This document shows, piece by piece, positions 18,328 through 62,392 of a DNA stretch of 64,000 nucleotides; within the stretch, counting starts at the first letter, position 1; each line of letters starts with the position of its first letter. The notes below the pieces were generated by a model. That model did no database searches, was not told the DNA's origin, and saw only the letters and a list, made by a program, of their open reading frames with translations. The stretch is from Candidatus Woesearchaeota archaeon (GTDB lineage Archaea; Nanobdellota; Nanobdellia; Woesearchaeales; 21-14-0-10-32-9). The translations under genes were made by a program, and so were the position numbers. The stretch spans positions 1 through 64,000 of the forward strand of contig JAHKLZ010000002.1 of assembly GCA_020854775.1 (NCBI GenBank), given 5' to 3'.

Positions 18328-18335
18328 GATGCACC

Positions 18336-19085: not shown

Positions 19086-19138
19086 TTTCTCTTAGCCCTG
19101 CTTTTTTTTGGTTAAAAAAAAGAATAAAATTGTGGCAC

Positions 19139-19903: not shown

Positions 19904-19984
19904 TGTTTTTTGTCACCTCACGGGCTTTTTTTTAGTGTGAATCTATGATTAAATCACCAAAACTTAGATACAAATGTGTATACT

Positions 19985-20004: not shown

Positions 20005-20099
20005 AGGATGGTTTTTTAGTCATTGAGCTTTTTTAGTAGAGAAACTAACAAATCAAATTTTTTTGTTTAGACGAGAAAAATATTTAAGAATTTTTTTTT

Positions 20100-20951
20100 T
20101 TAATAATTACTAAGAGTTTCTACTAATGAATCTTTATTACTGCATTTTTTAACAAGTTCAGCAAGCTCTTTTTGTCCAAAAACATGACTTATCCAAGTAG
20201 AGAAATCATGTTTATGACTTGAAACATGATGCTTATATTCTTCTTCACTCATGTCTTGTAATTCATTAAGCAAATCATTAATGCTTAACAATATTTTTCC
20301 ATTGTTTAATCTGAATGCTTTATCATGAGTTGTTTGCTTACTAAATATTTTAAATTTCTCTGCGCTTTTTATTAAAGATCTTAATTCTATTGATGCTTTT
20401 TCTATTTCTGATTCTTTTTCATTCAATAATTCCTTTGCTACGTTGTATTCTTTTGCGCGTATCATCCATTCATTCTCAAGTTCTTTTAACTTAAGCATTT
20501 TATTATACAAAGCATCATCTAATTCTTCTTCATGAAAAAAGAAATGTTCTCCTCTAACTCTGGCTTTATGATATCTTTTCATTAAATCAACCAAGCTAGC
20601 ATTAAAGTGATTATCGACTCCGTGTTTACCACTTTTTATTTTCTTTTCTAATTCCTCAAAAAAAGAATTCTTGCTTTGTTCTTTTTGTTGTGGGATATTC
20701 TCAGTCACTTCTAATTCTTTTGCTAGATTCCTTATATGCTCCATCTTCAAAGAATCATCATGCATTTTTTCCATTTCTTCCTTATTTTTTATTAAATCTT
20801 CAGGTATTTTTTGAGGATGATCTATTTTTTCTTCGTTTTTCTTGTTTAAACCATATTGTTCTATTAAGCTATCAGGCAAAGAACTAGGAGCATCTAAATC
20901 TTGTTTCTTCTCAGAACTATCTTCTTCTTTTTTTCTTTTAAAAAAATCCAA
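20100..20951 (-). CDS. Cytoplasmic coiled-coil protein with H-x5-HDF-x2-WI domain
   Basis: A 283-aa soluble protein with TTG start at 20951 behind AGAGGGGGAAG. Residues 1-110 are charged and probably flexible; 130-200 form a helical coiled coil; the C-terminal 70 residues (FRLNNGKILLSINDLLNELQ, then HHVSSHKHDFSTWISHVFG) are the domain shared with the membrane ATPase, the 468-aa protein and the 933-aa membrane protein. The core is HDF rather than NDF. It has its own promoter at 20990 and follows the giant-protein operon. A likely role is as a cytoplasmic adaptor of the surface apparatus. The sequence is less T/G-skewed than its neighbours. Confidence 0.72.
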   Translation of the reverse strand: MDFFKRKKEEDSSEKKQDLDAPSSLPDSLIEQYGLNKKNEEKIDHPQKIPEDLIKNKEEMEKMHDDSLKMEHIRNLAKELEVTENIPQQKEQSKNSFFEELEKKIKSGKHGVDNHFNASLVDLMKRYHKARVRGEHFFFHEEELDDALYNKMLKLKELENEWMIRAKEYNVAKELLNEKESEIEKASIELRSLIKSAEKFKIFSKQTTHDKAFRLNNGKILLSINDLLNELQDMSEEEYKHHVSSHKHDFSTWISHVFGQKELAELVKKCSNKDSLVETLSNY

Positions 20952-20989
20952 GTACTTCCCCCTCTTTTTAGTCCTTATAAAATTATTCT

Positions 20990-21000
20990 GTTATATAAAG
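20990..21000 (-). promoter_or_regulatory. TATA box of the 283-aa gene
   Basis: Minus-strand CTTTATATAAC lies about 40-50 bases before the TTG at 20951, inside the 97-base gap after the 2479-aa gene, giving this gene an independent promoter. Confidence 0.6.
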
Positions 21001-21048
21001 GTTTTGATGATTTTGGATTAGCAGAATCGTTTTAAAAAAAGACTTTTT

Positions 21049-24000
21049 TTAATTTAGTTCAAAGTAAAAAGCTAATTTGTTATTTTCACCGCTGTATTCT
21101 CTTAGTGTTGCAGGAACTCTTATTTCAAAATCATACACTCCGTATTTTCCTTGTTTCGCGTGATTTAGTTCCGTAATAAAAACTATTACTTCTTTATCGG
21201 CTGAATCATATCTTAGATTACCTGTGTCTTGACTAGTATCCCAAAGTATTCCTGTTACGAAGTCCTCATATTCGGTGCTTGGAACCACTGGAACATTATG
21301 TATTATTCCTGAAGAAACATTGAACGTTCTTGTTTGTAATGGTGTCTCTGTTCCTCCGCCCCATGTTCTTCGTATTGAGTCTGATAAATGAGTTGTGTTC
21401 ATAACTTCATCTATTGCTGAGAAGTCCCCTGCGACTAAGTTTCCATCCGTGTTCCTTGTTATTGCTTGCAAGTCTTGAAATGATATCTCTGAGTCCGCAT
21501 CCGCGAAGAATACATGTCCTTTTATCCCTGTATTATTAGGATATCCTAAGAATAATGAATAATCTGATTTTGCTAACACTATATCTGAAGTTGTGTTTCC
21601 ATAATAATATTGATATAATTCTAAATTCAAGGTGTTATTTGCTTTATTATTAGTAAGGTCTGTTTCGTTTATCACGTTTTTTTCATCAACTAATACATAT
21701 ATATTGTTTGGTCCTATGATTAAGTTATGAGTTGTATTGACTGTTTTTGTTTCTAAACTAGCTAAACTCGTTATGGTGCTTGTTCCTATTAATTCTCCTC
21801 CTGTGGCTGGATTTTGTAAATAAAAACTTACGTTGAATTCTTCTTCCGCAGGGCTTAATCCTTCGTTTGTTATGTTAGCAAAAATAGTATAAGTCGTTCC
21901 TTCTATTAGTTGAGTGTATTCAAACCATATGTCTTCGCTTCTCACTACTAAGTCAGGCGCTGAAATATTTAATACGTAGTTGCTTGTTGCGAAAGCAGAA
22001 TTGTTTTCTTCGTCGTGACATCGCACGTTCCATTCGTAAACACCTATGTCTACGAATATGTTTTCGAACGTGTTTGTTTCATCATTCGTAGGGTTGTTAT
22101 TTGTTGTTATTTCATTTAGTGTTTCACTAATATTTCCTATGAATAAAGTACAATAATCTAAGTTGTAATCAAACACGTAATAACTAAAATCAAAATTTCC
22201 TTTACCACTCTCAAACCAATCCTCGGGGCTGATTAAAGTGACGTTAGGTGGTGTCGCGTCTGGTGTCACGTTGAAAGTATAGTTATTAGTTGCATCATTA
22301 TAGGTGTCTGCTGTGGCAAGAGATACCGCTGAGTAAGTTCCAAGTTCTATGTCTTTCGTGTTCCAAGTAACTTCCAAGTAACCTGTTGAATCTGTGCTTT
22401 GTGTTTCGCTGTTTTTTAGTTCTTCTTCTGAATTATTTGTTGCGATAACTTCTGGATTCTTGTAATGTGTAACGTTCATTTCAACCCAGAACAAATACAT
22501 AGTTATGCTTCCTCTTCCTGTTTTTGTGACGTGTCCTTGCAGTCTTGTTCGGTTTAATTCTGTCCAAGTTATTTCTGAGTAAATATTTGTTATGTCATAC
22601 CAAGAACTTGTTTGTTTAGTCTGAGTCGTTGTTCCTGATGCTAGAGAAGAGTAATCTGCACCATCGTTCACGCTGTATCTTAATGACCACGTTCCTGAGC
22701 TCGCGGGTACTTGGTATCTGTAACTTACTTCTACTTTTTGTATTGGTCCGAATGTTTCATTTATGAATGCTCTTCCATGCGCGGAATGTGTTCCTCCTCC
22801 TCCTCCTTGTGTCATTTCTGCGTATGTATCATCATTTTTTCCTATGATGTTTGCAACACTTGTTGGTGTTCCTTCATCTGCTCCTGATTCTCGCGCGTTA
22901 AACAAAGTATGCGTGGTTACATCCACGTTATAATTAGGATTGCTCGCTCCACTATTATTATAATACGCGTAATATTCTTTGTTTTCTTCGTTCGCGGTTA
23001 AGTTCCCGTAGAAAACGAAGTAGCACCATTCACTGTTATCAGTGTAATATATTCTTCTTGGTATTATTGTTTTTGTTGCGTCTTCATGTTTTATTATTCT
23101 TAATTCATTCTCGCAACTTTGTATATTATTAAGTCCTGTTATGTTTATTCCTATCAAAATGTTTTCTTGGTTAGTTCCTGTTTCTTCATTTATTATTAGT
23201 TGTTGTCTTTTTTTCCAGTTAGTGTTCCACCAAGGCGTGTTTGTTTCTCCTGTTATTATGTAGTTAGTGATTTGAGTTTGTAGTGTGTTTCCGAATGCGT
23301 CTGTTGTGTTTATTTTTATTATTGCAGGTTCTCCTTGTTCCCATGTTTTTTCTGTATTAACATAAACATTTATTGTTTCATCACTTACTGCTGTGAATGT
23401 TCTTGTTTCGCTTGTTCCTTCATTTTCGTATTCGTCAAAACATTGTATTCTCCAATTGTATGTTTCTTCTTCTGTGTTTATTGTGAATGATTGTTGAGTA
23501 TTTTTTGTTATGTTCGTGCTTGTTTGATTTAATTCATCATTTATGTATAAGCTACAATTTAGGATGTTTGATGAGTCATTCACGTTGTAAATAAGGTTTC
23601 TTGAACCCGTAGCTAATAATGTGTTGTTCGTTGGGCTTATTAAAGTAATATTAGGTGGTGTTATGTCATTAACAGTTATGAAAAAAGTTTTTTGTTTTTT
23701 CAAATAATTTAGGGTTTCATTAAATATCATGGTGATGTTGTATTCTCCTGGTTCTGAGAAATATGTGTTGTTGTTAACGCTTCCTGTTCCTTTATTTATT
23801 AATTCGTTATTCAAATATAATTCTATGTATCCATCTCCAAGAATAATAACTTCTCCTTCTATTAAGACGTCGTTATTTTCGTTTATTGTTATGTTGTCTT
23901 GTACGCTGTTTAGGTAAAGATTAATTGTTGGTTCTGCTTTGTTAATAACATAACTGTAAATGGTTGTTTCATTTTCGTTTCCTGAAGTATCATTGGTGTA

Positions 24001-27000
24001 CCACTTGTAATAATATGTTCCTGAGTTAAGATTTTGTATTGAAAAATTATAAACATCGTTAATTCCTTGTAGGGTTTCTTCACTGATTATTCCTGTAAAA
24101 TTGTGTTCTAGTATTACTGTGTCTATTTCGAAGTTGTCTGTCCAAGTAATGTTGAAATAATATTTTTTATTATTTTCATAAATCGCAGGCGTTAATGGAT
24201 TAATGTTTATTTCGCTGTACTTAGGTGCCTCTACGTCTACGCTTAACGTGAAATTTTGTTCTGCGAAGTTTTTTCTTTTGCTTAAATCATGACATTTTAC
24301 GTTCCAAACAAATATTCCGCTTGGGGAGTTAACGTTAAAAATGTTTATTTCTCCGCTCGTGGGATTGGTGTGGTTAGCTGTTGCTTCGAAGTTTCCTGTG
24401 AAGTTTGTGTGTAATTCACAATAATGTAGATTTGTGTCTGTTGGGGTGTATTCGAAATTGATGTTATCATAATTCAAAAAAGAATTATTAATGGGGGAAT
24501 TTAACGTGATTTCTGGATTAGTCAAGTCTATTGTGAAGTGTCTCGTTGTTGAGTATCCTGTGTTGCTTTCACTGCTATTATCTGTACATGTTATGCTCCA
24601 GTTATATTTTTTTTCTGTTAACAAACTAATTGTGAAGTTGTTTTTTTCAAAATTAATTATGTTAGTGTTTTCTTCTTCGAAGTCTCCATCTATATATAAT
24701 GAACAACTGTCTATTCCTGTCGCGTCTTCTACTAAGTATTCGAAGAACGTTGTTGATGTGTTTAAGTATCTATTATTAACAGGATTTATCAGTGTGATAA
24801 TAGGAGGATCATTATCTAATGATTCAACTGTTAAGTATCTGCTTTCGCTTGTTTCGTCGTTTCCTAAGTCGTCGTAGCATCGCACGTTCCATTCGTAGTA
24901 GTTATTGTTTAGGAAAGTTGAAAAATTAAAATTTATGTTATCTGTTATCTCTGTATTTGTTTCTTCTACGCTTCCGTTAACTATTAATTCACAATAATTC
25001 ACGCTTGATAATTCATCGTATGCATTAGCTGTAAAAGTTACGAAGTTAGTGTCATCTATTAACGCGTCATCCTCTGGGCTTATTAGTGTTATTACTGGGC
25101 CTGTTGTGTCTACTGTTACTTGTCTTTGTGTTCCGCTTCCTTGGTTTGTTGCTTCATCATAACACCGCACGTTCCACGTTATTGGTCCTTCTGGTAGTGT
25201 TCTTGTGAAATAATTTAATTGGTTATTTGTTATTGTGTTATTTGTTTGTCTTACTTCCATTGTTCCTGTTTCGTTTGTTAATAATTCGCAATAATCTAAT
25301 GTGTTTGCGTCATTAGGCGTGTATGAAAATGTTACTTCATCATTTGATGCGAAGTGATTATTAGCAGGATTGTTCAGAGTCACTGTTGGGTTAATTCTGT
25401 CGTTTATGTATTTGAAATAATTTGTTGATTCTTTGCTGTTTTCGAATACGTCGTAAGCTATGACTTTCCAATAATAAACATTGTTCGCGTCTAATGCGAG
25501 ATCCACTGTGTAATTAGTATTGCTTATGCTAGTCATGGTATAAATATAGTCTGGGCTTCCGAAGTTAGGGTCTTTATCTAGTATTATTGTGTAATTTTTG
25601 AAGTCTGGCGTAGTGGTTTCTTCCCAAGTCAGGGTAGGTGTTAATTCTCTGCTTTCTGTTGCGTTCTCTGGGCTTATTAAATCAAATGTTGTTGGTTGTA
25701 TTGCTTGTACTTCGAACCACAAATTAGTATTTTTTTCGTTGCTTTGTCCTAATGTGTCATTTGCCCATATCTTCGTGACGTTATAGATTCCTTCTTCTAA
25801 GGTGTTTGTGAATTCGTAGTAGTACTCATCATCGTTGTTTTGTAGTTCGTGTTCTATCACGCTACTGTTTGGGTACGTAACACTTATTGTAGCTGTGCTT
25901 ATTCCGAAGCTATCAGTTATGGTGGCGTTAAAATGTAAGGTTCTGTTTTGTCTTATTGTGGTTTCGTTTAGTGCTTCGTTTTGTATTAGTGGCGCGTTGG
26001 TGTTTACGTACACTGTTCTGTTGTTTTCTGCGAACGCGCTTTTTTCGTCTTGGTTTTCACATTCAACATTCCAATTATATACTCCGTCGCTAGGACTTAG
26101 AGATGTGCTTGTTTGTGTATTGTTTTGTACATTTGTTAGTGTTGTGTTTATCTCCCATGTTCCTGTGGTGTTTGTGTATAATCTGCATGTCATCGTTGTG
26201 TATGTACTGTCTGTTGATGTGAAGTTAAAATTTATTGGTGTGCTAGTCATGATAGCATTAGGTGCTGGCGCGTTTAGTGTTACTTCTGGTGGGGGCGTCC
26301 CGGTATCTACTTCTAAGTACGCTGCGTATACGAATGCATTTGATGGGCCTCCTGCTCCGGTTACCGCACTTAAGTGTATGCTTAGTCCTGATAGGTCCCC
26401 GTTTGGTTCCCAACTACAACTTCTCCATGATAAACTCGTATCGGTAGGTACTGTGTTGCTGCACAAGGTGGTTGTTCCTCTTCTTAGGGAAAAAGTGTAT
26501 GTTGATGTTCCTCCAGTGCTGGTGTACACCCACAGCGTGATTTCTTCAATTCCTGTTTCTGTTATGCTTGAGAATCCAAATTCTGATATTTGATTTGATC
26601 TTCTTTGGCTTGCTACGTACGTTGAGATTGTTGGCGCGGTTGGTTGTCTAGTTGTTTTTACTATTTGTGTATAGCTTGTTCCTGTTCCGCTACTCCACTC
26701 AGTTGTTATGTCACTGCTCGGATCGTAGTATGTTATAGGGTCTATTGCTAGGTACCAGGGTCTTGCTTCTGTGAATGTTCTTGTTTCTCCTTGTTCTTCG
26801 TATGTTACTATGCTTGGGCCTAGTTCCCATAAGTAAGGTATTATGAAAGGAGAATTAAACTCGTATTTTATTTCCGTATCGTTTTTTATGTTGTGCCATG
26901 TTAAGTAAACATTTTCTTCGTCTGTTGTTTTCGTTGCGGGTTCGTAATTTTGTACTTTAAAACTTATAGGTAGCACTTCTGTGAAGTTGAATGTCTCTGT

Positions 27001-28488
27001 TTCTTTCAGACTCGTTATTTTTATTCTTGATTCGAAGGGTCCTTGGAAAGGGTCTATTGTTACAGGTGTTTCTCTGATTATGTCAAAGTCATATTCTTCT
27101 AATACTATGAAGTATGACTTCATAGAATCTTTAACTTCTCTTCCTTCTGCTCTTACACTTAATTCGTATCTTCCTTCTTCTTCAGTGGTGTGATTCGCGT
27201 AGTACACTCCTTGTTCTCCTCCAATCACTGTATTGTTTTTTGTTGTGTAAGTGAGTGTTTTGTTATTAGGAGTTGTCACGTTAACTTCCACTTCTGCTTC
27301 TGGTACTAAGTAACCATCTTTATCTAGAACAACTATTATTATTTCTGCGATTTCTCCTGTTTTGTACATTGATTTCTTGGTGTTTATTGATGCGACTCCT
27401 GTTTCTGCGTAAGTATTTGTTCCACTAGTTATTGTTACTTCGTATTCTTCGCCAGGTATTAATTCTTGTATTTTTTCCCAGTTCTCTTCGCATTTTTGTT
27501 CTTCGAAATTCCACTCCTCGCATTTTATTAATTCTGTTCCTTTCGCTACATTCTTAAACGTAGCTTCTTCAAATTCCAAATCTATGTTTATTAAGAATAT
27601 GTTACTGTTTTTTTCATTTATTTTTTTGTTTCTTGTTTCTTCAAATATTATGTTCTTGTTTTCTTCGTACTTGTATCCTTTTATGCTTATTCTTTGTTGT
27701 TTCTTTGTTATTTCTACGTCGTATTCCTTGTTTCTTTCTAGGTTTTCTTCTTCTATTTCTTTTATCGCGGTTCCTCTTGCTAAATTAATTATTTCTTTGT
27801 ATTCTATTTTTATGTCTTGTAATTTTCCTTTTGAATCTGTTATTTGTAAAGGCTTTGTTTTATGACTTCCAAAAACACGATGTTCTTGGTAACTCGTTAT
27901 TAGCTTGGTTTCAAATGTTGCTTCGTATTTTTTCTTTTCTGTGTCTTCTAATATGATCGTGTATGTACCTATTTTATCTGGGTAAAAACTCAGTGGGAAT
28001 TCTGGTTTTCCCATGAATGAATATTCTATGTTTTGAAAACTTATAGTTGCTTTTGTTATGTCTATGTTTTCTATTAGTTCTATTATGACTTCTTCTCCTA
28101 TTTTGTATTCTTTCTTATTAGTTTTAAAATACGCGTTCTGTATTAGTTCATAGTTTTCTTTAACGTAAAATGTTTTTGCTGTTTTTACTTCGTTTTCTTT
28201 ATTTATTAATTGTATTAAGTATTCTCCTCCGTTTTCTGGGTAAAATCTGTGTTCTCCTTCCACGTTTCCTATTAATTTGAAAACTCGGTCTGGGTGTATT
28301 ATTTCTAATTTATCTGTTTCTTCTCCTTCCACGAAGAACATTACTTGTTCTCCTTGTTCGTACTCTGTTTTCTCTAAGTTTATTGACGCGTTTATCATAG
28401 GAACTAATAATAGTGAAACAACTAAGAATAATAGCATTATTTCTTTTTTTGATTCGCTTTTTTTCTTTTTGTTTTTTTCTTGTTTCAT
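21049..28488 (-). CDS. Giant secreted Ig-repeat protein with subunit-type C-terminal cap (2479 aa)
   Basis: A signal peptide (about 15-34) is followed by two similar beta modules (NLEKTEYEQGEQV and FKTNKKEYKIGEEV), a cysteine-containing module near residue 325 (CEEWNFEEQKCEENW), a lectin-like module at about 590-735 shared with the 1901-aa protein, then many Ig-like repeats of 90-100 residues with the pattern ITLISPxNN, one cysteine in CxLYINxE and one in W-x-V-x-C-x-D. A DUF2341-like segment begins at WWNTNWKKRQQL (about 1750) and a CARDB-like domain lies at about 2176-2283. The last 170 residues form the shared cap, ending FEIRVPATLREYSG to LAFYFELN. There is no C-terminal membrane segment, so it is probably held at the surface by the cap. 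It is the last gene of the large operon. Confidence 0.8.
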   Translation of the reverse strand: MKQEKNKKKKSESKKEIMLLFLVVSLLLVPMINASINLEKTEYEQGEQVMFFVEGEETDKLEIIHPDRVFKLIGNVEGEHRFYPENGGEYLIQLINKENEVKTAKTFYVKENYELIQNAYFKTNKKEYKIGEEVIIELIENIDITKATISFQNIEYSFMGKPEFPLSFYPDKIGTYTIILEDTEKKKYEATFETKLITSYQEHRVFGSHKTKPLQITDSKGKLQDIKIEYKEIINLARGTAIKEIEEENLERNKEYDVEITKKQQRISIKGYKYEENKNIIFEETRNKKINEKNSNIFLINIDLEFEEATFKNVAKGTELIKCEEWNFEEQKCEENWEKIQELIPGEEYEVTITSGTNTYAETGVASINTKKSMYKTGEIAEIIIVVLDKDGYLVPEAEVEVNVTTPNNKTLTYTTKNNTVIGGEQGVYYANHTTEEEGRYELSVRAEGREVKDSMKSYFIVLEEYDFDIIRETPVTIDPFQGPFESRIKITSLKETETFNFTEVLPISFKVQNYEPATKTTDEENVYLTWHNIKNDTEIKYEFNSPFIIPYLWELGPSIVTYEEQGETRTFTEARPWYLAIDPITYYDPSSDITTEWSSGTGTSYTQIVKTTRQPTAPTISTYVASQRRSNQISEFGFSSITETGIEEITLWVYTSTGGTSTYTFSLRRGTTTLCSNTVPTDTSLSWRSCSWEPNGDLSGLSIHLSAVTGAGGPSNAFVYAAYLEVDTGTPPPEVTLNAPAPNAIMTSTPINFNFTSTDSTYTTMTCRLYTNTTGTWEINTTLTNVQNNTQTSTSLSPSDGVYNWNVECENQDEKSAFAENNRTVYVNTNAPLIQNEALNETTIRQNRTLHFNATITDSFGISTATISVTYPNSSVIEHELQNNDDEYYYEFTNTLEEGIYNVTKIWANDTLGQSNEKNTNLWFEVQAIQPTTFDLISPENATESRELTPTLTWEETTTPDFKNYTIILDKDPNFGSPDYIYTMTSISNTNYTVDLALDANNVYYWKVIAYDVFENSKESTNYFKYINDRINPTVTLNNPANNHFASNDEVTFSYTPNDANTLDYCELLTNETGTMEVRQTNNTITNNQLNYFTRTLPEGPITWNVRCYDEATNQGSGTQRQVTVDTTGPVITLISPEDDALIDDTNFVTFTANAYDELSSVNYCELIVNGSVEETNTEITDNINFNFSTFLNNNYYEWNVRCYDDLGNDETSESRYLTVESLDNDPPIITLINPVNNRYLNTSTTFFEYLVEDATGIDSCSLYIDGDFEEENTNIINFEKNNFTISLLTEKKYNWSITCTDNSSESNTGYSTTRHFTIDLTNPEITLNSPINNSFLNYDNINFEYTPTDTNLHYCELHTNFTGNFEATANHTNPTSGEINIFNVNSPSGIFVWNVKCHDLSKRKNFAEQNFTLSVDVEAPKYSEININPLTPAIYENNKKYYFNITWTDNFEIDTVILEHNFTGIISEETLQGINDVYNFSIQNLNSGTYYYKWYTNDTSGNENETTIYSYVINKAEPTINLYLNSVQDNITINENNDVLIEGEVIILGDGYIELYLNNELINKGTGSVNNNTYFSEPGEYNITMIFNETLNYLKKQKTFFITVNDITPPNITLISPTNNTLLATGSRNLIYNVNDSSNILNCSLYINDELNQTSTNITKNTQQSFTINTEEETYNWRIQCFDEYENEGTSETRTFTAVSDETINVYVNTEKTWEQGEPAIIKINTTDAFGNTLQTQITNYIITGETNTPWWNTNWKKRQQLIINEETGTNQENILIGINITGLNNIQSCENELRIIKHEDATKTIIPRRIYYTDNSEWCYFVFYGNLTANEENKEYYAYYNNSGASNPNYNVDVTTHTLFNARESGADEGTPTSVANIIGKNDDTYAEMTQGGGGGTHSAHGRAFINETFGPIQKVEVSYRYQVPASSGTWSLRYSVNDGADYSSLASGTTTQTKQTSSWYDITNIYSEITWTELNRTRLQGHVTKTGRGSITMYLFWVEMNVTHYKNPEVIATNNSEEELKNSETQSTDSTGYLEVTWNTKDIELGTYSAVSLATADTYNDATNNYTFNVTPDATPPNVTLISPEDWFESGKGNFDFSYYVFDYNLDYCTLFIGNISETLNEITTNNNPTNDETNTFENIFVDIGVYEWNVRCHDEENNSAFATSNYVLNISAPDLVVRSEDIWFEYTQLIEGTTYTIFANITNEGLSPAEEEFNVSFYLQNPATGGELIGTSTITSLASLETKTVNTTHNLIIGPNNIYVLVDEKNVINETDLTNNKANNTLNLELYQYYYGNTTSDIVLAKSDYSLFLGYPNNTGIKGHVFFADADSEISFQDLQAITRNTDGNLVAGDFSAIDEVMNTTHLSDSIRRTWGGGTETPLQTRTFNVSSGIIHNVPVVPSTEYEDFVTGILWDTSQDTGNLRYDSADKEVIVFITELNHAKQGKYGVYDFEIRVPATLREYSGENNKLAFYFELN

Positions 28489-28498
28489 CTTTTTAGTT

Positions 28499-37823: not shown

Positions 37824-37991
37824 TTTCTCATTTTTATTCTTTTTTGGGTTTAGCGACAACACCAAGCGAGCCTTGATTTTACAAACACAAAAATACTAGA
37901 CTCGGTGAAACATTGGTCAATTATTCGGGGCGAGCGCGTCGCGTTTCTTATCATTTTTTTAATCATTTTTTTTTCTTTCTTTGTTTTGTTT
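37824..37991 (-). other. Atypical GC-rich spacer inside the operon
   Basis: The 168 bases between two giant genes contain the strand-unusual stretch GGGGCGAGCGCGTCGCG (plus strand, 37927-37943) and GCGAGC again near 37865, in a window otherwise poor in GC. The minus strand holds a short open frame from an ATG near 37966 (MIKKMIRNATRS onward, 38 codons, rare codons CGC and TCG) that is probably not coding. A structured RNA, a processing site or a foreign insert are alternatives; nothing recognised. Confidence 0.35.
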
Positions 37992-47126: not shown

Positions 47127-47175
47127 TTTTTCCCTTGTTTTTTTAAGTTTGATTTCTTTTTTTAGTGAATTTTTT

Positions 47176-48648: not shown

Positions 48649-48654
48649 ATTTCT

Positions 48655-50061
48655 TCATTCCTCTTTTTTTTCTTCGTATAAGCCCGCGGCTTGCAAAACT
48701 TCTTTTTTCACATTAAGCTCTTCTCTTTCTACTGATTCTTTTATTTCTTTTTTGACTCCTTCTAATAATTTCATAACTTGTCTTCTGTCTTGTTCTTTAT
48801 TGCTTACTTCTAAGAATGACAATTTTGGCTTTATCAATCTAAGATTCATGTAAGGCATAAACATGTCTTTTCCTTGTTTTCTGTAATCTGATATTTCTGA
48901 GTATAATTCTTCATATATGTCTTTAAGATCTGAAACTGTTTCTTTTTGTTTTTCATAATTCAAGTAAGAGTTACTTTTCATATTACGAGTTTTTTCCAGC
49001 AAATTTTCTGCTCTTTCCGCTCTCAAATCTCTTTCTTTTTCTTCAGCTAATTTTTGTTCTTCTGTTTTTTCTTGTCTTTCATATTTTTCTGGTTCTTCTG
49101 TCTCTGTTGTTTTTTCTGTTTCTTTTTGTTCATCATTATTTTCTTTGTCTTCCTGTTCTGGTTCTTCTTCTTTGTTTTGTTCTGTTTCTTGTTTTTGTTC
49201 AGATTCCGTGTTTGGTTGTTCGTTTTGTTCTTCTAGCTCTGCTGGCTCTACTGCTTCTTTTTGTCCTGTTTCTTTTTCATCTTTTTTTGTTTCTTCTTTT
49301 GTTTCTTCTTTATTTTCTTGTTCTTCTGTTTTTGATTCTTCTTCGTTTTGAGAAGAAAATATTTTATTTAATATCTCGGAACTTATTCCTTGGCCTATGA
49401 GTATTTTTTTAATTTCTTCATTTGTTTTTCCTAACTTTTTCGCTTCTTTTATTATTGATAATAAATTTTCCGTAACGCTAATTGTTTGTTTTTTTTCATT
49501 TTCTTTAGTTTGTTCCTCTTCTTCTTCCTCTTCTGATTTTTTATTCTTTATTTTCTTAGCTTCCTTTTCTAATTCTTTCATCCAATTATCGGAAGGGGTT
49601 CTTCGTATCTTGTTTAATATTTTTTTAAAAATGGTTTTTTTATCTTTATTATCTTCTTCTTTGTTTTTCTTAATTTTAGGTTTTATTATTTTTTTTAGTA
49701 TGGCTTTGGCTTTTTCTTTTCTTGTTATTTTTTTGTTAATTTCTAATTCGTGTTTTATTCTTTCTAAATCTATTTTTTTGTGTTTTTCTTTGTGTTCACG
49801 AGTTTGCTCTTCTAATATTATTCTAAGTAGTTCATCAGGTTTTTTCACGTTCTTCATTTTTTCATATAATTCTTGTTTATGAAACACGTTCTTTATCCAA
49901 TTAGCATAATCGTTTTTTTCATTAGTTACATGATGATAAAAGTTTTCAAGATTCTCGTAATTAGTGTTTTTTTCTAGTTCTTTTTCTAATTCTTTGATGC
50001 TTCTAAGTTTTTCTCCGTTCCTAAGATAAAAATAATTATCAGGTTTTATTGTTTGCATCAT
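48655..50061 (-). CDS. Cytoplasmic protein with N-terminal H-x5-NDY-x2-WI domain
   Basis: A 468-aa soluble protein. The N-terminal domain (about 8-80: YFYLRNGEKLRSIKELEKEL, then HHVTNEKNDYANWIKNVF) is the domain found C-terminally in the membrane ATPase, the 933-aa and the 283-aa proteins. A basic helical linker follows. At about 200-236 the helical hairpin of the 490-aa protein recurs (KTNEEIKKILIGQGISSEIL). A long Glu-rich low-complexity part and a final coiled coil (about 370-455) complete it. The ATG overlaps the ATPase stop (ATGA), so it is made with the ATPase and very likely interacts with it. I infer an adaptor role. Confidence 0.72.
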   Translation of the reverse strand: MMQTIKPDNYFYLRNGEKLRSIKELEKELEKNTNYENLENFYHHVTNEKNDYANWIKNVFHKQELYEKMKNVKKPDELLRIILEEQTREHKEKHKKIDLERIKHELEINKKITRKEKAKAILKKIIKPKIKKNKEEDNKDKKTIFKKILNKIRRTPSDNWMKELEKEAKKIKNKKSEEEEEEEQTKENEKKQTISVTENLLSIIKEAKKLGKTNEEIKKILIGQGISSEILNKIFSSQNEEESKTEEQENKEETKEETKKDEKETGQKEAVEPAELEEQNEQPNTESEQKQETEQNKEEEPEQEDKENNDEQKETEKTTETEEPEKYERQEKTEEQKLAEEKERDLRAERAENLLEKTRNMKSNSYLNYEKQKETVSDLKDIYEELYSEISDYRKQGKDMFMPYMNLRLIKPKLSFLEVSNKEQDRRQVMKLLEGVKKEIKESVEREELNVKKEVLQAAGLYEEKKEE

Positions 50062-53000
50062 TTTTCACCATCTTCTTTTTTATCCTCTGATTCTTTTTCA
50101 TCTTCTTTTGTTTCTTCTGATTTTTCTTCTTTATTTTCTTGTTCTTCTTGTTTCTTTGGTTCTTCAGCAGGTTCTTTAGCGAAGTTTTTTACTGCGTCTT
50201 TTTGTTCTTCTTGTTTCTTTTTTTCAGGACTTTTTTCTAACGCAGGCAATTTTTCTCCTTTTGCTCTTTTATCAAGCAAGCTTATTATTTCTTTTCTGTC
50301 CTTAGTGTTATCCAGATGTTCTGCTAATTCAGCATCTCCTACTGCGTCTCTTATCCAATCAGCGAAATCATTTTTATTTTCATTCACGTGGTACTCATAA
50401 TCTGAGTCTTTCATCGCTTCTATTTCTGAGTATAAACTCGTTGGGGTAACAACTAACATGTCGTTGTGCAATTTCAATATCTTGTCAGGAGGAACATCTT
50501 TTTTGAATTTGTCTTGAGGAGTTTCTTTTTTGTCATCTTTTGTTTCTTCTTTCTTATTTTCTGCTTCGAATTTTTCTCTTTCTCCTTGTGCTTTCTTTAG
50601 TTCTTTATCTAGTTCTTCTTGAGACACCATTTTTATTTCCATTTTCTTAGGTGTTTTTCCTATTTTAGTCCAAACTTTTTTTAGTCTTGGTTCTAATCCT
50701 TCAATGTATATCTTTACCATGTTGAAGTTTCCAGCTTTTACTTTGTCTAATGCTAATTTTAGTTCTAATCTTAAATCGAACACGTCTTGTTTTTCTTCTT
50801 TTTCTAATTGGTCTAATTCGTAAGTCATTTGATCTATTTTCATGTTGTATTCGTTGTATTGTGCTATTTCTTCATCGCTTAATCTTGCTACTGAGTGCAT
50901 TATTGGTCTGAACGTTATGAAATAAGGTCTTCCTCTGTTATATGCTGAGTTTTGCACCATTCCTGTTCCTATGCTTGCTTTTACTAAGCTTTGCAGAACA
51001 TCTTCTCCGTACTTTGTTTTAATCCTGTCTAAGTCTCCTTCGTCTCTTGTTCTCATTTGTACTTCTGTGTTGATGTTTGCTTTGATTTGTCCTACGAAGT
51101 CTGCTAATACTTGCGAGATTAGCATTACGCCTATTCCCCACTTCCTGAACTCACGGCATGCTCTTTCTATTTGTAAGAATCCTTCTCCACTTCCTCCGAA
51201 CTTAGGTAGTAAACGGTGTACTTCGTCGTATACTAAGCAAAGTCTTAGTGGTTCTGATTCGTCGAAGTTCGCGTGGAATACTTCTCTTACGGTGTTCGCG
51301 ACGAAGATATCTATTTCTTTTGGGTCTAATTTATGTACTGCGAATACTTGTATTTCTCCTGGTTTCATGAATTTTCTTATATCTATTAATTCGCGCGCGT
51401 TATTGATTTGTCTTATGTTTCCTGTGAATGGTTTAGCGTCTTTTTCTGTCATTCCGAAGCTAGGATATAAGCCTAGTAGTCCTTTGTTTGTTAGTTTTCT
51501 TAGCATCCCTGTCCATTGCGCGGTTGGATCGAAGACTATTACTGCCACGTCTTTTAGTAGCATTTCTTCTATTATTACTTGTGCTGAGAAACTTTTACCT
51601 CCTCCTGTTGATCCTGCTACGATTGTGTGTGTTTTAAAATTTTCAAGGTTCATGTATGCTTTGTTTGATGTCTCTGCGATTTTTCCTGCGAATATACTTC
51701 TTGGTCCGTCTTTTGGTATCTCTGAATATTCAACTTTTAAGTGATATTTCTTTTTTCCTTCTATTCTTTTTTTGATTATTATTATTGCTATTATTAGTCC
51801 TATTAAGAATAATAAGAATAGTACTGCGTGCCATACTCTTATTCCCCAAAATAATATGTATTGATGTATTGGTAGACTTACGTGGAATACGTGGCTAGTG
51901 CTAGAACTTAGATCTAAGTAGTTAGCGGTTACTCTTATTACGTATTCTCCTTCTCTTATGTTATCAGGTAATTGTACGTTTCTTATTAATGACAGACTTG
52001 TTTTTAGGAACACGTTAGATGTGTGTGTCCATATTGTTTCTGTTCCGTCTAGGTTTTGTATTGTGAATATTAGACTAACAGGGTATTCTCTGTCGCTTAG
52101 CAAGTTTGTTAGGTCTGTTCTGAATGTGAATTTTGAGCCTGAGTATATTTTTCTGTCACTCATACTTATTCCTAGTAGTAGTGCTTGTATTGGTATTTTG
52201 TCTCTGTCTAATATTTCTACTATTATTGGTATTTCTACATCTATTCCGCCGGTTATGTTTAATGTTCCGTTGTATATTCCTGGTGTTTCATTTCCAAAAA
52301 ATGTTAGGGTTGCTCTTCCATCTCCTCTTGGGGGTATTAGTACACTGGTTCTATCTATACTTATTACTTTTTTTGCGTCTCCTACTACTTCAAAATTTAG
52401 TTGCATGTTATTTTGTCTGAAGCTTTGTATGAAGACTGTTTCTTGTGCGAATTCTCCTTCTCTTATTCTCTTCGTGATTCTATTGAAGGGTATCCAGTAA
52501 TCTTGTCCTTCTATTTCTACGGGTCTTTCTATTTGGAAGGGTACTTCTCCGGGTCCTTGGTCTGGTCCTTGGTCTGGTCCGAAGTCAGGTCCTATGTCTG
52601 GGTGCATATCTATGTATTCTACTGGTGGTAAGTCTATTTCTAGTATTATGTTGTGTTCTGTTACATTGTTTTCGAATACTGTTACGTTATTGAAATATAC
52701 TTTGTATCCTGTTCTTATTGCGAAGATATTTCTTGTTCCTGCGTCTGTTGATATTCTGTAGTAACCTGTCGCGTCTGAGACGTTAGAATAGCGTCCTATT
52801 GTTACTATTGTGTTTTCCATAGGATTTCCTCCTATGTCTGTGACTATTCCTTCTACTATTCCGAATGCGCCTGGTTCATCTTCGCCTGCAGGACACTCTA
52901 TGTATGGATCTAAGAATATGTAATATTTTGTTGTTGCATTGTTGGGAATGGGGAGCATCATTTGATAATTATAGAATCTTTGGTTGAATCCTCTGTGGAG

Positions 53001-53678
53001 CATTTCTTCTATTAATGCGACGACTACATAATTGTTGTTTTCATCTTTTAATAGGCCTGCTTTGAACATTCCTTCTTCGGTGCCTGTTCCTACGTATGTG
53101 TATACTGTCGGTATATTGTTGATTGGGTTTGCGCCTATTTGTATGTTCATTGTTTCTTTGAATGTGTTAATGGTAGAATCGTAATGTGTGTTATCTATTC
53201 CTATAAACGCGTCTATTTCTTGGCGTGTTGCTGCTTGAAGCGTCGGTATGGATATTTCTTGTTGTGGTACTAGGCTTGCGAATAGTAGCGTGGTGGTTCC
53301 GCTTCTCAGACATTCGAAGAATATGTTTCCTTCTATCATTCCTCCTGGGTCTACTTCGAATTCCCATGGTTGTGTTTGTCCTACTCCGAATGCAGCGCCA
53401 TATAATCCTGCCCAGCTTATTACTGGTTTTTTGAACAGCAGGTTTATTTGGTGTATGTATCCGCCTTGTCCTTCATGATAAGCTATGTATCCTGTGTAAA
53501 TACTCGTGGTTAATATTATTAGTATACTTATTATTGTTAGTATGATTAATGCGTAGTTTTTTTCTTTAGTTTTTTTGTTATTTCTGTTTTTTAGCGCTTC
53601 TTCTATAGTCATATTTTTTTTTCTGGTCATGTCTTTTATTTTTTGTTTCAATGTCCGTTTTTTTTCTTGTTCTTTCAT
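50058..53678 (-). CDS. Membrane-anchored HerA/FtsK-type ATPase with large ectodomain
   Basis: A 1206-aa protein with an unusual layout. Residues 1-40 are inside; membrane segment 1 is 42-64. The ectodomain has (a) a domain of about 85-262 of the same type as the small secreted subunits (HYDSTINTF, NPINNIPTVYTYVG, TTKYYIFLDPYIEC), (b) a carboxypeptidase-regulatory-like domain (272-350), (c) a GPD-rich linker (363-377) and (d) two Ig-like domains (about 400-600). Membrane segment 2 is 613-636. The cytoplasmic ATPase has Walker A GSTGGGKS (689-696), Walker B VYDEVH (816-821) and IERACREFRKWGIGVMLISQ. After a coiled coil, the shared cytoplasmic domain (1065-1140, NDFADWI) ends the fold, followed by a charged tail. 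It is the probable motor of the surface system. Confidence 0.85.
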   Translation of the reverse strand: MKEQEKKRTLKQKIKDMTRKKNMTIEEALKNRNNKKTKEKNYALIILTIISILIILTTSIYTGYIAYHEGQGGYIHQINLLFKKPVISWAGLYGAAFGVGQTQPWEFEVDPGGMIEGNIFFECLRSGTTTLLFASLVPQQEISIPTLQAATRQEIDAFIGIDNTHYDSTINTFKETMNIQIGANPINNIPTVYTYVGTGTEEGMFKAGLLKDENNNYVVVALIEEMLHRGFNQRFYNYQMMLPIPNNATTKYYIFLDPYIECPAGEDEPGAFGIVEGIVTDIGGNPMENTIVTIGRYSNVSDATGYYRISTDAGTRNIFAIRTGYKVYFNNVTVFENNVTEHNIILEIDLPPVEYIDMHPDIGPDFGPDQGPDQGPGEVPFQIERPVEIEGQDYWIPFNRITKRIREGEFAQETVFIQSFRQNNMQLNFEVVGDAKKVISIDRTSVLIPPRGDGRATLTFFGNETPGIYNGTLNITGGIDVEIPIIVEILDRDKIPIQALLLGISMSDRKIYSGSKFTFRTDLTNLLSDREYPVSLIFTIQNLDGTETIWTHTSNVFLKTSLSLIRNVQLPDNIREGEYVIRVTANYLDLSSSTSHVFHVSLPIHQYILFWGIRVWHAVLFLLFLIGLIIAIIIIKKRIEGKKKYHLKVEYSEIPKDGPRSIFAGKIAETSNKAYMNLENFKTHTIVAGSTGGGKSFSAQVIIEEMLLKDVAVIVFDPTAQWTGMLRKLTNKGLLGLYPSFGMTEKDAKPFTGNIRQINNARELIDIRKFMKPGEIQVFAVHKLDPKEIDIFVANTVREVFHANFDESEPLRLCLVYDEVHRLLPKFGGSGEGFLQIERACREFRKWGIGVMLISQVLADFVGQIKANINTEVQMRTRDEGDLDRIKTKYGEDVLQSLVKASIGTGMVQNSAYNRGRPYFITFRPIMHSVARLSDEEIAQYNEYNMKIDQMTYELDQLEKEEKQDVFDLRLELKLALDKVKAGNFNMVKIYIEGLEPRLKKVWTKIGKTPKKMEIKMVSQEELDKELKKAQGEREKFEAENKKEETKDDKKETPQDKFKKDVPPDKILKLHNDMLVVTPTSLYSEIEAMKDSDYEYHVNENKNDFADWIRDAVGDAELAEHLDNTKDRKEIISLLDKRAKGEKLPALEKSPEKKKQEEQKDAVKNFAKEPAEEPKKQEEQENKEEKSEETKEDEKESEDKKEDGEK

Positions 53679-56650
53679 TGTTTTGTTATTTCTTCGGTTA
53701 TTTGTTTGATTTGTTCTTTGAATTTGATTTGTGTGTTTTTTTCTGATTTGTTGTATGCGTCTGTTAACTTGTTGTATGTTTCAATTGCGTATTCTTTGTT
53801 TTTTTCTTTTAGTGCTGTTTGTGTTTGTGTTGTTAGTTCTTCTACGTATTTTTCGTTTAGAATATTCATCAATGTTATGGCGTCTTCATATACTTCTTTT
53901 TTAACGTTTCTTGGCGCTTTTTCATATATCATTTTTATTTCTTTGTATATGAGGCTTGCGCGTTCTATTTCTTTTGTTTCCAAATAATCTTTTGCATCAT
54001 TTATGAGGTTTTGTAATTGTTTTATTTTCTTGTCTTTTGAAAAATTATTTATGTATTCTATTATTTTTTCTTTTAAGTCAAAAACGTAGAAAACATATCC
54101 TAGTATTAGTAAAATTAGTATTATTACTAAGCTCGTTATTGGTTCTAGTTTCATGTCTGTGAATGTTACTAGTCCTGTTATTGCATTACTTCCTGATCCG
54201 CTTGTTCTGAAAGATCCTTCTGTTAGTATTATTGTGTGTGTATTTTTTATTTTTTCTAAGTCTTGGTGTTCTTTTAAGTAATAATTTATTGTTTCTGGTT
54301 TTTCAAATCTTATTAATTTATTTCTTGTTAGTACATCGTGTACTTGTTTCGTTACGAATTCAGTAGTTATTTCATCGCTTATTTTTTCTAGTAAGAAATG
54401 ATGCCTTGTTGTGTCTCCTGTGTATTCTATTGTTTTTTGAACTACTGTTATATTTTCTTTTTCTCCATTTATGTATGTTATAGTTGTTTGTGCGGTGAAT
54501 GTTCTAATTCTTATTAGGTTTTGTTGATTTTCTATTTCTCTTAAGTCTGGTCTTCCTTGTAGGTTTCTTTTTTCTGCGTATTCTTTAACAATTTTTTCTA
54601 GGTCTTCCCTGCTTGCATGAGTCATGTATTCTTCTGATTCTGTAACTTCTATTAGTAAAGGAGTTTTTCCTTCTAATTGTATTACTTGTTCTTTGTATTC
54701 TTGTATTTTTTCTTGTTTTTGTTGATCTGTTAAGTCTCTTCTTAGTGCTAAGCTGTTAAGATCTCGTAGTATTCTTTCATAATCTCTTAGAGATACTCTT
54801 AGTGTTTCTTTTATGTCTAATGCGTCCGCGGTTTTTCTTTCTTCTAAGCCTAAGTTATCTAAGTTTTCGTGTGCTTGTTCTATTTGTCTTCTTAGTTCTC
54901 CTGCGTCTATTGTGTCTTGAGTGTTAGTTGTTGAGAATTGCGTTGTTGATTTTGAGAATTCTCTTATTTCAGATTCTGCTGTTTCTTTTTGTGTTTCACA
55001 ACTTATTTTCCATTTGTATTCTCCTGTTTCTATTTTTTCTTTGAAAGTTATTGTTCCTGCTTTCACGTTTTCTTTTCTTGCTAGCTCTATGAACCATTGG
55101 CTGTTTTTGTCTGTTATGAATAATTTACATGTAGCTGTTTCTGCTAAGTTTATTTTTGCTTGGAATTCTATTTCTGTATTAGTTATTGTGGCTTTATTTG
55201 TAGGTTTTTCTAGTTCTATTTTGTTATTTGTTGTTGTCGTTGTTGTTTCTATTTTGTCCAGTTTGATTGTTAGACTAGTTGTTGCATCTAGTTTGATTGT
55301 TTCTGTTTTCACGTAATATCCTATCGCGTCCAGTCTTACTTTGTATGTGTCTTTTGGTAAGTTAAATTTTGTTTTTCCTGTACTATCTGTTATTTTATCT
55401 TCGTTAGTTTCAAGTATTGTTATTATTGTGTCTTTTAGTACTTGGTTTTGTTGATTTCTTACTTCTATTGTTAAATCATAATAAGGTCTCACGTCTAAAG
55501 TGATGGTTTCTTCTTTTGTGTTTCCTTCTTTATCTCTTGCTGTTAATTTTATGTCTCTATATCCTTCTGTTGCATATTTTATTTTTAGTTCGTTTCCTGT
55601 TTTTGTTGTTCCATCTGGTAAAGTCCAAGTGTATGTGTAAGGTGTTATTCCTCCTGTTGTTGTCGCTGTAAGAGTTGTTTCTTCGTCTAGTTTTATTTTT
55701 GTTTTTCCAGAAACGCTTAGTTTCATGCTGTCTATTACTTCATATGTTTTTGTTATGGCTATGTTCGCGGTTGTTATGTTTGCTCTTATTTCGTACTTAC
55801 CCGGATTTTTTGTTTCTGTATTTGTTAATAATGTTGATGGTGCTTGTATTTTTTGTGTGTGTGTGCATTCTTCCCATTGTAAAGTTCCTTGTGTTGCATT
55901 TCTGCATATTTTTATGTCTACTTCTATATTGTTTGTTGTTTTTAATAAATAATAAGAAGTTTCTCCTAAGTTGTATTTTTCTTTGTCTGTTTCTATTATC
56001 AGGGCTTCTTCAACTACTATGTGTATGGTTTTTTCTTTGTGTGTATAATTTTCTGTTTCGTTATATCTTGCTTTTATTTCGTAGGTTCCTGTTTTGTCTG
56101 GTCTTCCTGTTATTGTTATGGTTCTTGTTCCTTCTGTTTCTTCAAGTAGTTCTGTTGTGTTCATCAAAGTATTATTTATTAATAGTTCTAAGTGTCCTTG
56201 TTCTGTTTCTATTGTCGCGGTTATATTTACTATGTCTAATTGATTTATGGTCGCGTTTTCAGTTTGTGAATTAAATTTAAGTGTTATTATTGGTTCGGCT
56301 TTTTTTATTTTGTAGTTATTTATTATTGTTGTATTAGTTGTGTTTGTTTCGTTTATTATTGTCCATTCATAATTGTATGTTCCTGCGCTTAAGTCGTCTA
56401 TGTTTATCAAGTAGTATCCTTCTTCGTAATTCACATCACTGTTTTCTAGAAGTATTATTTCATTTTCGAAGAGTTTGAATATTACTTTATCTTGTAATTC
56501 TTCTATTAATATGAATTCGTAGTTTTGATTAGGTGTGTATGTTGCGTTTTCTGGAGTTGTTTGTGTTGTTTGTGCTGATGCTAGAATTATTAATAATAGT
56601 GTTATCATCATGAAGGTTATTGCTTTGTTGATTTTTGGTGTTATTTTCAT
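53675..56650 (-). CDS. Type I membrane protein with Ig/PKD-like ectodomain and cytoplasmic helical repeats
   Basis: A 991-aa protein with signal peptide (about 1-26). The ectodomain contains Ig-like modules, a PKD-like domain (about 320-387; GGITPYTYTWTLPDGT is typical), a carboxypeptidase-regulatory-like domain (388-462), another Ig-like module (about 475-580) and a helical part (about 600-720). The membrane segment is about 833-853. The cytoplasmic tail of about 130 residues is helical, with TPR-like spacing (RASLIYKEIKMIYEKAP, YAIETYNKLTDAYNKSE). The start overlaps the upstream RHH stop and the end overlaps the ATPase start (both ATGA), so its amount is tied to the ATPase. Likely a membrane partner of the ATPase. 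Confidence 0.75.
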   Translation of the reverse strand: MKITPKINKAITFMMITLLLIILASAQTTQTTPENATYTPNQNYEFILIEELQDKVIFKLFENEIILLENSDVNYEEGYYLINIDDLSAGTYNYEWTIINETNTTNTTIINNYKIKKAEPIITLKFNSQTENATINQLDIVNITATIETEQGHLELLINNTLMNTTELLEETEGTRTITITGRPDKTGTYEIKARYNETENYTHKEKTIHIVVEEALIIETDKEKYNLGETSYYLLKTTNNIEVDIKICRNATQGTLQWEECTHTQKIQAPSTLLTNTETKNPGKYEIRANITTANIAITKTYEVIDSMKLSVSGKTKIKLDEETTLTATTTGGITPYTYTWTLPDGTTKTGNELKIKYATEGYRDIKLTARDKEGNTKEETITLDVRPYYDLTIEVRNQQNQVLKDTIITILETNEDKITDSTGKTKFNLPKDTYKVRLDAIGYYVKTETIKLDATTSLTIKLDKIETTTTTTNNKIELEKPTNKATITNTEIEFQAKINLAETATCKLFITDKNSQWFIELARKENVKAGTITFKEKIETGEYKWKISCETQKETAESEIREFSKSTTQFSTTNTQDTIDAGELRRQIEQAHENLDNLGLEERKTADALDIKETLRVSLRDYERILRDLNSLALRRDLTDQQKQEKIQEYKEQVIQLEGKTPLLIEVTESEEYMTHASREDLEKIVKEYAEKRNLQGRPDLREIENQQNLIRIRTFTAQTTITYINGEKENITVVQKTIEYTGDTTRHHFLLEKISDEITTEFVTKQVHDVLTRNKLIRFEKPETINYYLKEHQDLEKIKNTHTIILTEGSFRTSGSGSNAITGLVTFTDMKLEPITSLVIILILLILGYVFYVFDLKEKIIEYINNFSKDKKIKQLQNLINDAKDYLETKEIERASLIYKEIKMIYEKAPRNVKKEVYEDAITLMNILNEKYVEELTTQTQTALKEKNKEYAIETYNKLTDAYNKSEKNTQIKFKEQIKQITEEITKQ

Positions 56651-56916
56651 TTTTTAAGCTCCATAATTATTTTTTCTAGTTCTTGTAAGAGTTTGTCTTT
56701 GTCTTTGCTGTCTTTGTTTTGTGCGATGTTTTCTTCTAGTTGTTCTCTCATTTTTTGTACTTCGTGTTTGTAGGGTTGTGTGTGTTCTTCGCATTTTTGT
56801 CGTATTATTGTTCTGATTTGTTCTGATAAGTCTAAGTAGTGATTTTCTTGTGCTAAGATTTTTAGTTCTTGTACTAATGTTGCGGGGAGTCTTATGCTTA
56901 GCACTGTGTCTTTCAT
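56647..56916 (-). CDS. Ribbon-helix-helix regulator with coiled-coil tail
   Basis: An 89-aa protein. The RHH domain is at the N-terminus (TVLSIRLPATLVQELKILAQ, then DLSEQIRTIIRQKC); residues 50-89 form a charged helix. It overlaps the 53-aa RHH gene upstream and the 991-aa gene downstream by ATGA junctions. Two different RHH proteins opening one operon suggests a heterotypic or two-level repressor acting on the repeat-rich leader upstream. Confidence 0.8.
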   Translation of the reverse strand: MKDTVLSIRLPATLVQELKILAQENHYLDLSEQIRTIIRQKCEEHTQPYKHEVQKMREQLEENIAQNKDSKDKDKLLQELEKIIMELKK

Positions 56917-57074
56917 TTTTTTATCCCTCTTTGTTTTTGTTCTTGTACGTATTCTCTTAGGAATTGTCTTACGGCTTCTGATCTTGAGCTGAAGGATTTT
57001 TCTTGGAGCAATGGGTCAAGTTTTTTTAGAAGTTCTTTTGATAGTCGTACGTTGATTATTTCTGTTTTATTCAT
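56913..57074 (-). CDS. Ribbon-helix-helix regulator, first gene of the large operon (53 aa)
   Basis: A short frame from ATG at 57074 to TGA at 56915-56913. The product has strand IINVRLSKELLKKLD, helix 1 over LLQEK and helix 2 SSRSEAVRQFLREYVQEQ, a clean RHH domain with the usual FSSRSEAVR turn. Its stop overlaps the ATG of the 89-aa RHH gene (ATGA). It is easy to miss because of its length. The leader of about 125 bases upstream carries TTGTATGTTT repeats that are candidate operators for it. Confidence 0.8.
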   Translation of the reverse strand: MNKTEIINVRLSKELLKKLDPLLQEKSFSSRSEAVRQFLREYVQEQKQRGIKK

Positions 57075-57102
57075 TATTTGTTCCTCGACGCGTCAAACAA
57101 AA

Positions 57103-57197
57103 TTGTATGTTTTTTGTAGTTTTTTTATTAGTTTTTGTATGTTTAATGTATTACATTTAGTACCTTTTTTGTATATTTGTATTACATTTGTATGTTT
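57103..57197 (-). repeat. TTGTATGTTT / GTATTACATTT repeat array in the operon leader
   Basis: On the plus strand TTGTATGTTT occurs at 57103-57112, 57135-57144 and 57188-57197, and GTATTACATTT at 57148-57158 and 57179-57189; a TTGTATATTT variant lies at about 57169-57178. The array lies downstream of the minus-strand TATA box (about 57221-57229), so it occupies the start site and leader of the RHH-led operon. Repeated short motifs of this kind are typical RHH operators. Confidence 0.65.
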
Positions 57198-57220
57198 TTT
57201 ATACATTCTTCGTGCTACAT

Positions 57221-57247
57221 TATTATATAAATGTTTTGTTTTTTACT
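57221..57247 (-). promoter_or_regulatory. Promoter of the large operon with a 20-bp element shared with 63829
   Basis: TAAATGTTTTGTTTTTTACT (57228-57247) is identical to 63829-63848 and overlaps the TATA box of each minus-strand promoter at the same place (TATTATATA here). Because the identity extends well upstream of the TATA box, it is more than a shared TATA and suggests common activation of the large operon and of cassette B. Confidence 0.65.
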
Positions 57248-59203: not shown

Positions 59204-59205
59204 AA

Positions 59206-61623: not shown

Positions 61624-61629
61624 ATTTTT

Positions 61630-62337: not shown

Positions 62338-62392
62338 TTTTGTTTCCTCTTTGTTTTTCTTCATTTTTTAGTTCCTTTTCTTAGTTCTTATT

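Follow-up and report, generated by a model that had tools for sequence, protein, structure and literature searches.

A gene set on the minus strand of a 64,000-nt stretch of DNA from a Candidatus Woesearchaeota archaeon (assembly GCA_020854775.1, contig JAHKLZ010000002.1, positions 1 to 64,000 of the forward strand; hereafter, the window) encodes a predicted HerA-family membrane ATPase together with coiled-coil and giant secreted proteins. We favor, at a probability of about 0.55, the reading that this gene set specifies a DPANN surface apparatus that spans the envelope and functions like, and is probably related to, the SPEARE-type surface ATPases, in take-apart form. The predicted architecture, which comprises a membrane HerA motor, conserved partners, a shared extracellular module that we call WG and a shared operator, is well supported; from it we infer docking through WG, a transport step and a role in host contact.

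The ATPase begins with a transmembrane (TM) helix near residue 42, followed by an ectodomain of approximately 550 amino acids (aa), a second TM helix near residue 617, the motor (approximately residues 642-1031) and a DUF5752 domain at the C-terminus. Within the ectodomain lie the WG module (approximately residues 70-262), a carboxypeptidase-regulatory-like domain and two immunoglobulin (Ig)-like domains. The motor scores 42.2 bits against the DUF87/HerA profile, for which the cut-off is 23.2 bits, and carries Walker A (AGSTGGGKS), Walker B (LVYDEVH), SQ (ISQ) and N-T-R (NINTEVQMRT) motifs that are conserved in homologues. An AlphaFold2 model of the monomer has a mean predicted local distance difference test (pLDDT) score of 84, and comparison of its motor part with the PDB using Foldseek yielded HerA hexamers (4d2i, 8xau, 9x1l and others). 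Several beta-rich and axonemal structures also rank high when the whole ATPase is compared, because of the ectodomain. A profile search of PDB sequences with the ATPase likewise returned HerA entries. These results identify the ATPase as a membrane protein of the HerA family whose motor is predicted to lie inside the cell and whose ectodomain is predicted to lie outside. An earlier note on this DNA had proposed a HerA/FtsK-type ATPase with an ectodomain, and the DUF87 score, the motifs and the model agree with that proposal.

Reading of the open reading frames (ORFs) places the ATPase gene within eleven consecutive minus-strand genes that extend from 57074 down to 21049 (Table 1). Exact 4-bp overlaps join four pairs of neighbors (RHH1/RHH2, RHH2/991, 991/ATPase and ATPase/468, RHH denoting ribbon-helix-helix), and a fifth overlap (1901/625) exists only if the start codon that gives 625 aa is taken; an alternative start at 32136 would give 630 aa. 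The widest spacer in the run is 168 bp. Judged by this layout, the eleven genes are a candidate operon. The run and its overlaps are as the earlier note described them, but its count of ten genes is wrong, eleven being listed. It also extended the span to 20100, which holds for the eleven genes to 21049 but not for the 283-aa gene at 20100-20951. A T-run directly precedes that gene, which also has a TATA-like box of its own (CTTTATATA) and is therefore probably transcribed separately.

Strong relatives of the ATPase were found at 77 loci in assemblies named Woesearchaeota, Pacearchaeota or Nanoarchaeota, one record being labeled Euryarchaeota SM23-78; the ATPase is present in 55 of the 279 genomes sampled from the phylum. 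Gene order was scored at 62 loci where the WG-type ATPase is complete, with the testable loci as denominators. T1M, the 991-aa protein, lies immediately upstream of the ATPase at 33 of 51 loci, and an RHH gene precedes T1M at 28 of 32. Downstream, we observed a 468-type protein at 44 of 53 loci and CC490, the 490-aa coiled-coil protein, following at 40 of 46. A giant with the same N-terminal region comes after CC490 at 16 of 33 loci (any giant, 20 of 33). The median spacing at both ATPase junctions is -4 bp. Thus, the core order that recurs in Woesearchaeota and neighboring DPANN lineages is RHH, RHH, T1M, ATPase, DUF5752/coiled-coil protein, CC490 and giant 1, and since it recurs in tens of species it is not due to chance. 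A counterpart of giant 2 lies directly after giant 1 in two genomes (G312 and G313), followed by a DUF5752 protein and small WG genes, and a DUF5752 protein also follows giant 2 in G310 and G320. The earlier note proposed that its reading should fall if gene order were conserved in no relative; the order is conserved, and so the reading survives this comparison. Its claim of one DPANN gene set under shared regulation is likewise supported.

Table 1. Genes and promoter features of the predicted apparatus, with positions in the window
Feature	Position	Strand	Basis or remarks
RHH1, 53-aa ribbon-helix-helix regulator	56913..57074	-	Pfam RHH_1; homologues in G001, G031
RHH2, 89-aa RHH-like regulator	56647..56916	-	homologues 46-61%, same place, in G001, G004, G009, G031, G050
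T1M, 991-aa type I membrane protein	53675..56650	-	signal peptide, PKD/Ig domains, TM ~841, helical-repeat cytoplasmic tail
HerA-family ATPase, 1206 aa (predicted)	50058..53678	-	profile search, hydropathy, AlphaFold2 model
468-aa cytoplasmic protein	48655..50061	-	DUF5752-like domain at the N-terminus, acidic coiled central part, C-terminus conserved
CC490, 490-aa coiled-coil protein	47176..48648	-	most constant ATPase partner
Giant 1, 3044 aa, secreted	37992..47126	-	conserved N-terminal region, Ig-like/CARDB domains, WG module 2856-3044
1901-aa secreted Ig-like protein, accessory	32118..37823	-	1901 aa from ATG, or 1915 aa from TTG
625-aa secreted protein, accessory	30244..32121	-	PGF-pre-PGF domain (TIGR04213 E 3e-17), C-terminal TM
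585-aa secreted protein, accessory	28499..30256	-	C-terminal part related to 297-aa secreted family
Giant 2, 2479 aa, secreted	21049..28488	-	C-terminal WG module 2284-2479
283-aa cytoplasmic DUF5752-like protein	20100..20951	-	twelfth gene of the span down to 20100
Pair of small exported WG proteins (249 aa, 254 aa)	18336..19903	-	
Pair of small exported WG proteins (244 aa, 232 aa)	61630..63091	-	fifth WG gene just beyond the window
BRE/TATA-like promoter element (BRE, B recognition element; aaaacatttatataataatg)	57216..57234	-	ends approximate, TATA about 57226; direct reading
Operator-like array, 7 TACA half-sites, three pairs exactly 11 bp apart	57104..57192	-	between TATA box and RHH1

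The WG module occurs in three settings: N-terminally in the ATPase ectodomain, in exported proteins of approximately 245 aa (four in the window and one just beyond it) and at the C-terminus of both giant 1 and giant 2. HHalign relates the WG ectodomain to the small proteins with a probability of 99.7% (E 1.6e-25) and the small proteins to the giants with a probability of 98.9% (E 1.7e-17), and plain BLAST matches giant 1 to a small WG protein at E 1.4e-7. WG occupies the C-terminal end of giant 1 in 10 of the 11 readable cases, the exception being a 1250-aa ORF (in L087). Among 60 related genomes, small WG proteins are encoded in every one with a WG-bearing ATPase, and WG is absent from the four without detectable WG in the ATPase (G030, G032, G049 and G058); Fisher's test, which ignores kinship, gives p 1.5e-7 for this co-occurrence. 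A model of a small WG protein has a pLDDT of 85.9 and no significant match in the PDB (best E 0.21), and the module matches nothing in Pfam or among viral models. Given that neither Pfam nor the PDB holds a match, the modeled fold looks new. A pilin or TasA-like fold was considered for WG and rejected for the same lack of matches.

On the predicted cytoplasmic side, CC490 is present in 17 of the 60 genomes, and 16 of those 17 also encode the ATPase, usually adjacent to it (Fisher p 1e-10, kinship again ignored). CC490 has no meaningful match in Pfam or the PDB, and its assignment as an archaellum or other known component was rejected on that ground. DUF5752 recurs at the C-terminus of the ATPase, in the 468-aa and 283-aa proteins and in a 950-aa membrane protein at 14581-17433; a literature search for this domain found nothing. 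A short motif of the type GKTxEEIKxxLIxxxxxxxIxxxIF is present in both the 468-aa protein, where it lies midway, and CC490, where it is C-terminal. CC490 also contains, in its acidic region, a 117-bp tandem repeat (47355-47678; 2.8 copies, 94% match), probably a recent expansion.

The promoter region of the run contains a phased array of TACA half-sites, and the same pattern is found in relatives. Across 37 sites upstream of RHH genes, TACA occurs 142 times on the coding strand, compared with 69 +/- 6.5 in shuffled sequence; 46 intervals between neighboring TACA sites are exactly 11 bp, and 21 of the 37 sites show 11-bp phasing. RHH1 scores above the cut-off of Pfam RHH_1 (E 1.1e-6), and the identity of RHH2, which has no Pfam support, rests on its homologues in relatives. 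The phased array upstream of RHH genes fits autoregulation by the RHH proteins through a putative operator that would serve as one switch for the operon. A search of the window's whole genome for three such sites, allowing one mismatch, gave no excess over the control, and of its hits only the one at this promoter is known to be an array. Across the common intergenic region, a divergent gene for a 238-aa membrane protein with a MarR-type helix-turn-helix (HTH) domain (57331-58047) faces the array.

In several relative genomes, a giant ORF has the ATPase as its C-terminal part. The longest, a single uninterrupted ORF of 15,809 codons (G032:C41:15376-62802; L058, L059, L057), encodes an N-terminal TM helix, a giant ectodomain, a further TM helix and a HerA-type motor in which the Walker A and Walker B motifs are both intact; it is followed by a gene for a 699-aa ATPase and then by a CC490 homologue. 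Fused ATPases in seven further genomes (G180, G161, G068, G160, G220, G051 and G058) also have CC490 nearby. SPEARE proteins of nanohaloarchaea join a giant ectodomain through a TM helix to a VirB4/TraG-like ATPase, reach 8,880 and 9,409 aa, have a second ATPase encoded downstream and have been proposed to act as secretion straws (Reva 2023, PMC10266531). Compared by description, the fusions in relatives have the same layout, with a giant Ig-rich ectodomain, a second ATPase next door and a DPANN host genome. The earlier note knew of no described system with this composition. That statement does not hold, as SPEARE joins giant surface proteins to such an ATPase (PMC6642349, PMC10266531), and sequences resembling its intracellular part have been noted in Woesearchaeota (Hamm 2019, PMC6642349). 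The 9,409-aa SPEARE protein has been called the largest in cultivated archaea (PMC10266531), a length that the 15,809-codon ORF exceeds.

The window ATPase resembles SPEARE in its TM helix near residue 617 followed by a cytoplasmic motor of the HerA/VirB4 clade. It differs in that the giants are separate genes, the ectodomain measures approximately 550 aa rather than thousands and carries WG, and the operon has a single ATPase gene (pairs being found only in relatives) along with RHH regulators, DUF5752 proteins and CC490. By these features the apparatus of the window is not a SPEARE protein, yet it probably works like one. Giant-fused ATPases in relatives adjoin the same CC490 partner, and the best reading of the window system is a split form related to the SPEARE-type apparatus. 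A literature search for Woesearchaeota HerA surface operons found nothing, and the library searched yielded no account of this parts list and its partners.

Where two ATPases occur in tandem, the motor tree bears on their history. The giant and short ATPases of the same locus are mutual nearest relatives in G032 (twice), G030 and G058, suggesting repeated duplication or gene conversion. An older duplication separated short ATPases, which carry DUF5752, from long ones, which have a WG ectodomain and in some cases a T1M-type helical tail. Within this long, ectodomain-bearing clade, every member except the earliest branch, L121, has another residue in place of the Walker B glutamate (D-G or D-S); the glutamate is intact in every other readable motor of the set, including the short partners. 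A simple reading would be a mixed ring in which the arm-bearing subunits are catalytically dead. The clade members with glycine or serine are L127, L128, L131, L132, L135, L137, L139, L140 and G024:C13.

We propose that six ATPase subunits would form a ring in the membrane. The giants and small exported proteins would dock on its ectodomain through WG, replacing the covalent fusion seen in SPEARE-like relatives, while CC490 and the DUF5752 proteins would couple or brace the ring from the cytoplasmic side and the RHH pair would set the dose of the whole gene set. Hydrolysis of ATP would then move a polymer, either DNA or protein, through the ring, or do mechanical work on fibers, at contacts with another cell. 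The fiber building and host contact suggested in the earlier note may thus belong to its function. A more general statement, which we offer tentatively, is that this is a DPANN-specific, motor-driven trans-envelope machine with a HerA ring and a fixed CC490 partner, in which giant arms are attached by WG docking or by fusion (up to 15,809 aa) and some lineages have a mixed active and dead ring.

Several points weigh against a split SPEARE-like apparatus. The operon encodes neither a polytopic channel protein nor a known cargo, and shared WG modules may merely mirror common export or surface placement. The Fisher tests are uncorrected for phylogeny, and contig ends truncate the ATPase ectodomain in both G037 and G049. 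The link to SPEARE itself draws on published descriptions and on the SPEARE-like fusions in relatives of the window ATPase. In addition, not all the surface genes that the earlier note assigned to the operon belong equally: the giants share WG with the motor, but the 1901, 625 and 585-aa genes are not generally conserved in relatives and appear to be accessory.

The strongest competing explanation, although we consider it improbable, is a machine for assembling or retaining a surface layer or fibers without a special role toward a host, in which the motor would order secreted WG proteins on the cell's own surface. Such a machine would suit the structural Ig-like and WG proteins that are the most conserved outer parts, the five small WG proteins around the window with a large island of surface genes, and the lack of a recognized cargo or toxin gene. 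However, HerA-family motors are DNA translocases, SPEARE proteins have been linked to host contact (PMC6642349), and presence in just 55 of 279 sampled genomes would be odd for a basic surface layer.

The translocase activity of HerA motors would also suit a system for DNA transfer or uptake on a HerA/VirB4-type membrane translocase, as in archaeal Ced import or conjugation, which we regard as somewhat less probable still. Profiles of TraD, TraC and CedD match the ATPase weakly at its Walker A region, a SPEARE-like short ATPase has a TrwB-type match, and VirB4/VirD4 of type IV secretion and the Ced system share the ATPase superfamily and the membrane setting. Against this, the VirB4 N-terminal domain PF03135 has no match in the window's own genome, and the operon has no relaxase or pilus genes and no multi-span channel of VirB6, VirB3 or CedA type, no operon protein having more than two hydrophobic helices as judged by hydropathy only. 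The partners are instead surface Ig proteins. An archaellum or type IV pilus was also set aside: the secretion ATPase PF00437 has no match in the gene set, and its four matches in the genome all lie on other contigs. On one of these contigs (G000:C18), such an ATPase (19604-21910, L167) is near a gene for a 119-aa DUF5752-like protein (15279-15638). A viral origin was rejected after a pattern scan of IMG/VR contigs found no ATPase relative.

It is very unlikely that the run is a plain co-regulated cluster of surface-protein genes with the ATPase as a neighbor without a direct role; surface genes do often cluster and several downstream genes differ among genomes, but motor and giants share WG and co-occur, they form one polypeptide in relatives, and 4-bp overlaps tie the ATPase to its partners across species. 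A HerA-type anti-phage defense system is the least credible alternative, as PADLOC HerA and mad8 models match (best E 8.5e-16) over the motor only, there is no SIR2, DUF4297 or nuclease partner beside the ATPase and no detectable NurA in the genome, and the neighbors are surface and coiled-coil proteins. More generally, Sulfolobus HerA, Thermococcus HerA-NurA and bacterial HerA-SIR2 and HerA-DUF4297 have the same motor fold with Walker A/B, SQ and N-T-R motifs, but the window ATPase is membrane-anchored, has a large ectodomain and lacks a nuclease partner. A second HerA-like ATPase, apparently soluble, is encoded at 6663-7973 (Pfam DUF87, weak Zot match) and is 70% identical to its counterpart in G050.

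How DPANN archaea hold their hosts and exchange material with them is an open question for which SPEARE is a main molecular lead, and SPEARE proteins, being huge fusions, are difficult to express. A split form with parts of ordinary size, namely a motor ring, a coiled-coil partner, a docking module of approximately 25 kDa and an RHH switch, would make the mechanism testable part by part. If the reading as a split relative of SPEARE is correct, it extends this type of system beyond the halophilic nanohaloarchaea, to Woesearchaeota, Pacearchaeota and their relatives, and defines its core partners.

The gene run lies within a conserved surface island that is larger than the operon (9254-19903 and 58202-63761, with L038:155-1398). 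Its members include 587-aa, 230-aa, 601-aa and 950-aa membrane or surface proteins, two 297-aa secreted paralogues and the small WG proteins, as well as an ArsR-type regulator and a double-HTH regulator, and counterparts of the island are found in G031, G313, G320 and G310.

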